From Phycisphaerae bacterium (GTDB lineage Bacteria > Planctomycetota > Phycisphaerae > UBA1845), in the NCBI GenBank assembly GCA_028282665.1, contig JANQHN010000182.1:1-33194 (forward strand): a stretch of DNA of 33,194 bases, given 5' to 3'. Numbering within the stretch: position 1 is the first letter of the stretch; each line of letters starts with the position of its first letter. The notes under the pieces are model-generated. The model was not told the origin of the DNA. It made no database searches and saw only the letters and a list, made by a program, of their open reading frames with translations. A program made the translations under genes and the position numbers. Shown piece after piece: positions 4,501 through 27,925 of the stretch.

Positions 4501-4602
4501 ATGACTAGAGCAAGCTCTAGCCAGGTGTAGCGTCCGACACCGTGTTTTGTACTGTCGGAAAGTCGACATTCAGCGCTACGTTTGGATTGAAACTGCTATA
4601 GT
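4501..4602 (-). repeat. 102-bp structured inverted-end repeat, copy A (MITE-like)
   Basis: The reverse complement of this segment matches 27601-27702 at 94 of 102 bases with no gaps. One end carries TGACTAGAGCA (4502-4512), the other TGCTATAGT (4594-4602), an inverted pair that has decayed at the outer two bases here. Inside are a palindrome CTAGAGC-AA-GCTCTAG (4505-4520), an outer stem GTAGCG/CGCTAC (4528-4533 with 4574-4579) and an inner stem CCGACA/TGTCGG (4534-4539 with 4553-4558). It begins 16 bp after the tetR stop and ends 35 bp before the second TetR operator. It codes for nothing and no target-site duplication is obvious. Confidence 0.85.
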
Positions 4603-27507: not shown

Positions 27508-27925
27508 GTCAGTCAACCCATCGCGCGGAACAAAACCACCGCAAAGACGGAGATGCGCGCAGCGGCATGACCGCGCCTTCCGGAGGCGAAACAGCCATTG
27601 ACTATAGCAGTTTCAATCCGAACGTAGCGTTGAATGTCGACTTTCCGGCAGTACAAAACACGGTGCCAAACGCTTCACCTGGTTAGAGCTTGCTCTAGTC
27701 ATTTCCGCAAAAGTGAAAATGACGACGAAGTGAGAATTGGCTGGCGGTTGATACCGGATCGCTTAACGCACAACTATCCACAGAACCGCCTGCCGTTTTG
27801 CACGTATGATCGTTAGACACGATTACTGCGCGGTTGCGCGTACTCCGGTATCGGCGTGTCGATGCAGTACGGCGGCGCTTCCCGCAACATCTCCATCAAC
27901 GAGCAAACGTACGAGGACACAACAC
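27508..27925. other. Intergenic region carrying the second copy of the 102-bp repeat
   Basis: This 418-bp gap lies between the kinase and radical SAM genes. It holds a small hairpin CGCCT-TCCGG-AGGCG (27574-27588) without a T-tract, then the repeat copy B. After it, about 220 bp show no clear promoter or ORF with a ribosome site other than that of the next gene. Confidence 0.55.
27599..27702 (+). repeat. 102-bp structured inverted-end repeat, copy B (MITE-like)
   Basis: Positions 27601-27702 match the reverse complement of 4501-4602 at 94 of 102 bases, no gaps. Here the ends are better kept: TGACTATAGCA (27599-27609) and TGCTCTAGTCA (27691-27701) form inverted repeats agreeing at 10 of 11 positions. 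The outer stem GTAGCG/CGCTTC has one mismatch, and the inner stem reads CCGGCA/TGCCAA: one A-T pair of copy A has become G-C while the two outer pairs are lost. No coding potential and no clear target-site duplication (flanks GCCAT and TTTCC). Confidence 0.85.

Follow-up and report, generated by a model that had tools for sequence, protein, structure and literature searches.

The Repeat and Its Two Copies in the Window

The window, i.e., the whole stretch of DNA analyzed (33,194 bp), is one contig (C228) of a Phycisphaerae MAG (G000; 4.46 Mb in 446 contigs, 88% complete). It carries two copies of a short repeat, A and B, placed in opposite orientations. Copy A is flanked by a TetR-type regulator gene on one side and another gene on the opposite side, and copy B lies between an APS kinase gene and a radical-SAM gene; both are intergenic, as the sequence-only reading of the window had stated. 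No sigma-70 promoter-like sites were found around copy A, and two weak terminator-like sites were distinguished there.

The alignment on which that reading was based was recomputed and confirmed: the reverse complement of 4501-4602 matches 27601-27702 ungapped, with 94 of 102 positions identical. Comparison of the window with itself extended the match over 110 bp (90% identity, E = 1e-36). The same five bases (GTCAT in the orientation of the element) follow both copies, at 4501-4505 and 27698-27702, and due to this shared flank the match and the terminal repeat originally reported stretched past the end of the element. The 10/11 terminal match described for copy B is present, but its outer three bases (TGA/TCA) belong to the flank, and the terminal inverted repeats (TIRs) of the element itself are approximately 27 bp long and imperfect. 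The following features were distinguished:

4506..4600, minus strand: copy A, a 95-bp probable non-autonomous transposable element (MITE), from TA to TA, with its right end at 4506 and left end at 4600 (alignments)
4579-4600 (left) and 4505-4527 (right), minus strand: matches of copy A to the end patterns (genome-wide end search)
4506..4532, minus strand: right TIR of copy A, TAGAGCAAGCTCTAGCCAGGTGTAGCG (outside in), with the terminal palindrome TAGAGC-TT-GCTCTA (comparison with IS630 terminal repeats)
4574..4600, minus strand: left TIR of copy A, TATAGCAGTTTCAATCCAAACGTAGCG (22/27 identical to the IS630 ends in loci L319 and L322)
27603..27697, plus strand: copy B, a 95-bp probable MITE, from TA to TA (self-alignment, both end patterns)
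27603..27629, plus strand: left TIR of copy B (self-alignment, comparison with IS630 ends)
27671..27697, plus strand: right TIR of copy B, with the terminal palindrome (self-alignment, right-end pattern)

Copy Number and Structure of the Element

The prediction that the repeat would be abundant in the genome, rather than limited to these two copies, proved correct. In a whole-genome search allowing up to 3 mismatches, the left end (TATAGCNRTTTCAATYCAAACG) had 160 matches in G000 and the right end (CACCTGGCTAGAGCTTGCTCTAG) had 132, with none for the reversed patterns of either end, which places the copy number at roughly 130-160. A total of 419 kb of DNA surrounding the copies was gathered, and a profile was built from them. 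The unit is 95 bp long (TATAGC...GCTCTA), with TA at both of its sharp ends, and contains no open reading frame of its own. Read from the outside in, the left end is TATAGCAGTTTCAATCCAAACGTAGCG and the right end TAGAGCAAGCTCTAGCCAGGTGTAGCG; since the motif GTAGCG starts at offset 21 in both, the ends constitute 27-bp imperfect TIRs of the form TANAGC-N15-GTAGCG. The right one is additionally palindromic (TAGAGC-TT-GCTCTA).

No two of the 83 full-length (96-bp) copies are identical, and each differs from the consensus by about 6.5 mismatches on average (about 6.5%), so the burst of amplification was not very recent. Older, strongly diverged relatives with other cores were also observed in G000 (L045, positions 1391-1500; the left flank of the copy in L018; contigs C66, C282, and C315), which suggests several waves of amplification in this genome.

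Target Sites and Nested Insertions

The base 5' of the left TA is a pyrimidine in 117 of 118 copies in G000, and the base 3' of the right TA is a purine in all 118 (G in 112). The insertion context is thus Y-TA...TA-R, mostly CTAG. Transposases of the Tc1/mariner/IS630 group insert into TA, which is duplicated (PMC2170065), and IS630 prefers the TA of CTAG, according to the title of the study by Tenzen and Ohtsubo (1991), as cited therein.

Three copies (in L045, L002, and L018) start exactly at the terminal CTAG of an older, diverged element, and in another MAG of the order, OFTM174 (G011), one IS630 copy has its start precisely at the CTAG that closes the right end of a MITE (L386). Such nested insertions are filled sites for which the element consensus supplies the empty form. 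Comparison of the flanks of the copies revealed no detectable target-site duplication beyond TA, and such a comparison cannot tell a duplicated TA from a TA fixed at both ends of the element. When orthologous sites were compared in a same-genus pair of genomes (G095 and G096), the spacer had diverged beyond alignment.

Terminal Repeats Shared with IS630 Elements

Genes of IS630-type transposases (DDE_3; PF13358) are common among genomes of the order. Several DDE_3 elements are bounded by TAGAGC-N15-GTAGC repeats: those in L310, L318, and L319 (1059 bp), L314 and L348 (1027 bp), L315 (1058 bp), and L317 (998 bp); repeats of this kind are also present at the ends in L321 and L322. In L310, L314, L315, L317, L318, L319, L322, and L348, the outer and inner motifs and their spacing are as in the MITE. 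The closest match to the left end of the MITE was found for the IS630 ends in L319 and L322 (22/27 identical positions), while background 27-mers starting with TA in the DNA examined reach about 17/27, the few higher scores being attributable to element copies contained in that DNA. In L310, L319, and L322, two overlapping frames together encode the transposase (in L310 and L319 they are about 154 and 218 aa long). They meet at a lysine-rich stretch encoded by a run of A, as if the protein were produced by programmed frameshifting.

IS630-like TIRs at the same spacing, the YTAR/CTAG target and the nested insertions at CTAG together argue that the repeat is very probably an IS630/Tc1-mariner-type MITE, which would be driven in trans by an IS630-family transposase recognizing matching ends. 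The right-end palindrome is absent from the IS630 ends found, and hence simple internal deletion from a known IS does not account for the MITE. Among the three options offered by the sequence-only reading (MITE, REP-like element, structured RNA or regulatory module), it is the first that the high copy number, the fixed ends, the TIRs and the target favor. The near-absence of copies from predicted genes, the length class and ends retained across genera, and the joint presence of IS630 and MITE copies in OFTM174, all described below, point the same way.

The transposase with matching ends was located in related genomes and not in G000. A search with the L319 transposase gave matches in 33 of 114 genomes of the order and none in G000, and the single DDE_3 gene of G000 sits in an element with different ends. 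The driver of the G000 copies may have been lost, may be too diverged or may be unassembled; given an assembly that is 88% complete and divided into 446 contigs, its absence is weak evidence against the MITE reading. IS fragments occur at contig ends in other genomes, and none were found at the contig ends of G000. MITEs coexist with IS630 copies bearing such ends in two genomes, G011 and G010. OFTM174 (G011) contains a multicopy IS630 with TAGAGCGGTTTCAGTCAACATGTAGCG ends, which breaks ten contigs, alongside about 30 MITE copies. Many contig ends in G011 (L382-L391) and G010 (L392-L394) lie about 110 bases inside an IS630 copy, which means that the IS interrupts these assemblies and that counts of it are too low. 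To the left of the IS630 end in L391 there is a separate long hairpin, gtgtagcgccaccccttgtgggtggcgt...acaaggggcgacgctacat, with GTAGCG arms, which is possibly another miniature element.

According to the mechanism that we propose, the DDE transposase of an IS630-family IS with TAGAGC-N15-GTAGCG ends would bind the 27-bp repeats of the MITE in trans, excise it and insert it at the TA of YTAR, preferably CTAG, with duplication of the TA. Each insertion would leave a CTAG at the right end, at which later MITE copies, or the IS itself, could insert. The family is an old one, spread over 11 genera of one order and amplified separately in each lineage, and its driving IS630 in G000 may since have been lost or may have escaped assembly.

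Relatives in Other Genomes

The pattern GCTACANNNNNNTAGAGCTTGCTCTA (up to 1 mismatch) was found in 12 of 114 genomes of the order, representing 11 genera; 10 of these genomes and 9 of the genera belong to one family, that of G000. Individual genomes contain as many as 92 copies, and the reversed pattern gave no match. The pattern was absent from about 300 genomes sampled across the rest of the class. The named carrier records are Phycisphaerae/Planctomycetota MAGs: OFTM174, OFTM303, OFTM182, OFTM250, B5T3L8, CSMAG_2921, Dive96_bin2.90, Dive96_bin4.107, and UBA1845. The relatives retain a length of 93-96 bp, TATAGC and TAGAGCTTGCTCTA ends and the GTAGCG/CGCTAC motifs, and the terminal palindrome is common to those of other genera. 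Their cores differ from genome to genome. For 67 of 73 elements the nearest neighbor came from the same genome (8 expected with shuffled labels), which indicates separate amplification in each lineage. The exact core pattern had no match in any other organism among the GTDB r220 genomes, a set from which this genome or very near ones were perhaps left out.

Gene Avoidance and Orientation

Only 2 of 134 copies overlap a predicted gene, compared with 65% expected at random, the genes being ORFs called by codon usage in this analysis. Between co-directional genes, copies in G000 (L001-L161) are antisense in 34 cases and sense in 8 (p = 7e-5), and the relatives in other genomes (L162-L241) are antisense in 16 and sense in 5 (p = 0.03). 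Hairpins followed by a run of T were detected on the antisense strand of 26 of 75 elements and on the sense strand of 4 (about 6 in mononucleotide shuffles), using a simple, crude terminator search in which many elements gave no match. The antisense bias may reflect selection that favors or opposes a one-way terminator.

An IS630-type MITE might also terminate transcription one way, or form a 3'-end module, and be maintained or tolerated in antisense orientation. The antisense excess in both sets of genomes and the strand difference of the terminator-like hairpins agree with such a role. However, the purging of harmful sense insertions, or the direction of replication, could produce the same bias, which moreover depends on codon-usage ORF calls, and the hairpin search was as crude as noted above; we consider the terminator role unlikely. 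A somewhat more doubtful extension is that one MITE lineage survived while about ten genera diverged, keeping its asymmetric ends and its length of 93-96 bp but replacing its core, because a one-way terminator would let it sit harmlessly or usefully in antisense orientation behind genes.

Readings Other Than a DDE-Driven Transposon

The element could alternatively be of the REP/REPIN type, with a RAYT, i.e., a Y1 tyrosine transposase, mobilizing it as single-stranded DNA and the GTAG of its arms serving as the REP tag. Both arms contain GTAG motifs, the terminal hairpin is perfect, duplication outside the TA was not detected, and Planctomycetes are reported to have GTAG REPs (PMC3733652). In both arms GTAGCG lies 21 nt in from the end; IS630 ends carry it at that place too. 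However, PF01797 (Y1/RAYT) has no match in G000 (E ≤ 1e-5), whereas 103 of the order's 114 genomes contain one; in G021 and G010, which are rich in the element, a single weak match each was found. In the Y1 loci examined, the sole element-like right-end motif (L279; 2 mismatches) is located 1.2 kb from the gene and lacks the other features. The ends match those of a DDE transposon, IS630, at equal spacing and with YTAR on both sides. The REP-like option is thus largely refuted, and we regard it as very improbable.

Equally hard to uphold is the view that the repeat is a structured small RNA, or a cis-regulatory RNA module, which has spread across the genome and is retained for its fold. Both window copies can form stems, on three of the four strands the folding energy is 1 to 5 kcal/mol lower than the mean of shuffled sequences, and the orientation bias between co-directional genes would suit such a module, but no Rfam match was obtained at gathering thresholds, and the folding z-scores (-1.8, -1.2, -0.4, and +1.2 over both strands of each copy) are near those of shuffled sequence. 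The A-T to G-C double change that had been taken as a sign of a conserved fold (element positions 46 and 64) is real, but it is coincidental and carries no weight for a fold: over 82 copies in G000 the commonest state of this pair is G/T, and 32 copies have a Watson-Crick combination, where shuffling predicts 29.7 and yields at most 37. Across these 82 copies no covariation was found, as Watson-Crick pairs in the arms and the inner stem are not in excess over shuffled columns. The pairs with the highest mutual information are mostly neighbors rather than stem pairs, and the arms of other subfamilies are complementary only in part. The stems are thus a by-product of the inverted repeats, and changes accumulate in them uncompensated.

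Comparison with Known Systems and Significance

Judged by description, the closest analog of the Phycisphaerae MITE is RUP of Streptococcus pneumoniae, an element of about 107 bp with ends similar to IS630-Spn1 (PMC3049150). The two share the length class, about 100 copies per genome, IS630-like terminal repeats and a proposed movement in trans; they differ in phylum, in the spread of the MITE relatives over 11 genera, and in that the matching IS was not found in G000. The Nezha MITEs of cyanobacteria, likened here also by description, are non-coding as well, and ISNpu3-like elements, i.e., resident IS with similar ends, have been proposed to mobilize them (PMC3049150); their sequence and host are different. 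ISY100 and IS630, autonomous IS of the Tc1/mariner family, use the same TA target and duplicate it (PMC2170065), and the CTAG preference is reported for IS630 in the title cited above, but both encode their own transposase, whereas the MITE contains no ORF. GTAG REPs and REPINs resemble the MITE as high-copy, intergenic palindromic repeats with a GTAG motif and nested arrangements (PMC3733652; PMC2817692), but are moved by Y1 transposases (RAYTs), while the MITE has the ends of a DDE element, IS630, and the search of G000 for Y1 genes gave nothing.

The MITE family is of a familiar kind, and no description of it was found in the open-access literature searched. An abundant repeat family of an uncultured planctomycete lineage can now be named, with its ends, its target and its related IS630 transposases; since the ends and target are given and the transposases are identifiable, the copies may be masked or used as insertion markers. 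In an otherwise ordinary kind of genomic parasite, the combination of a fixed length, fixed asymmetric ends, changing cores and an antisense bias constitutes a natural data set on MITEs that outlive their drivers.
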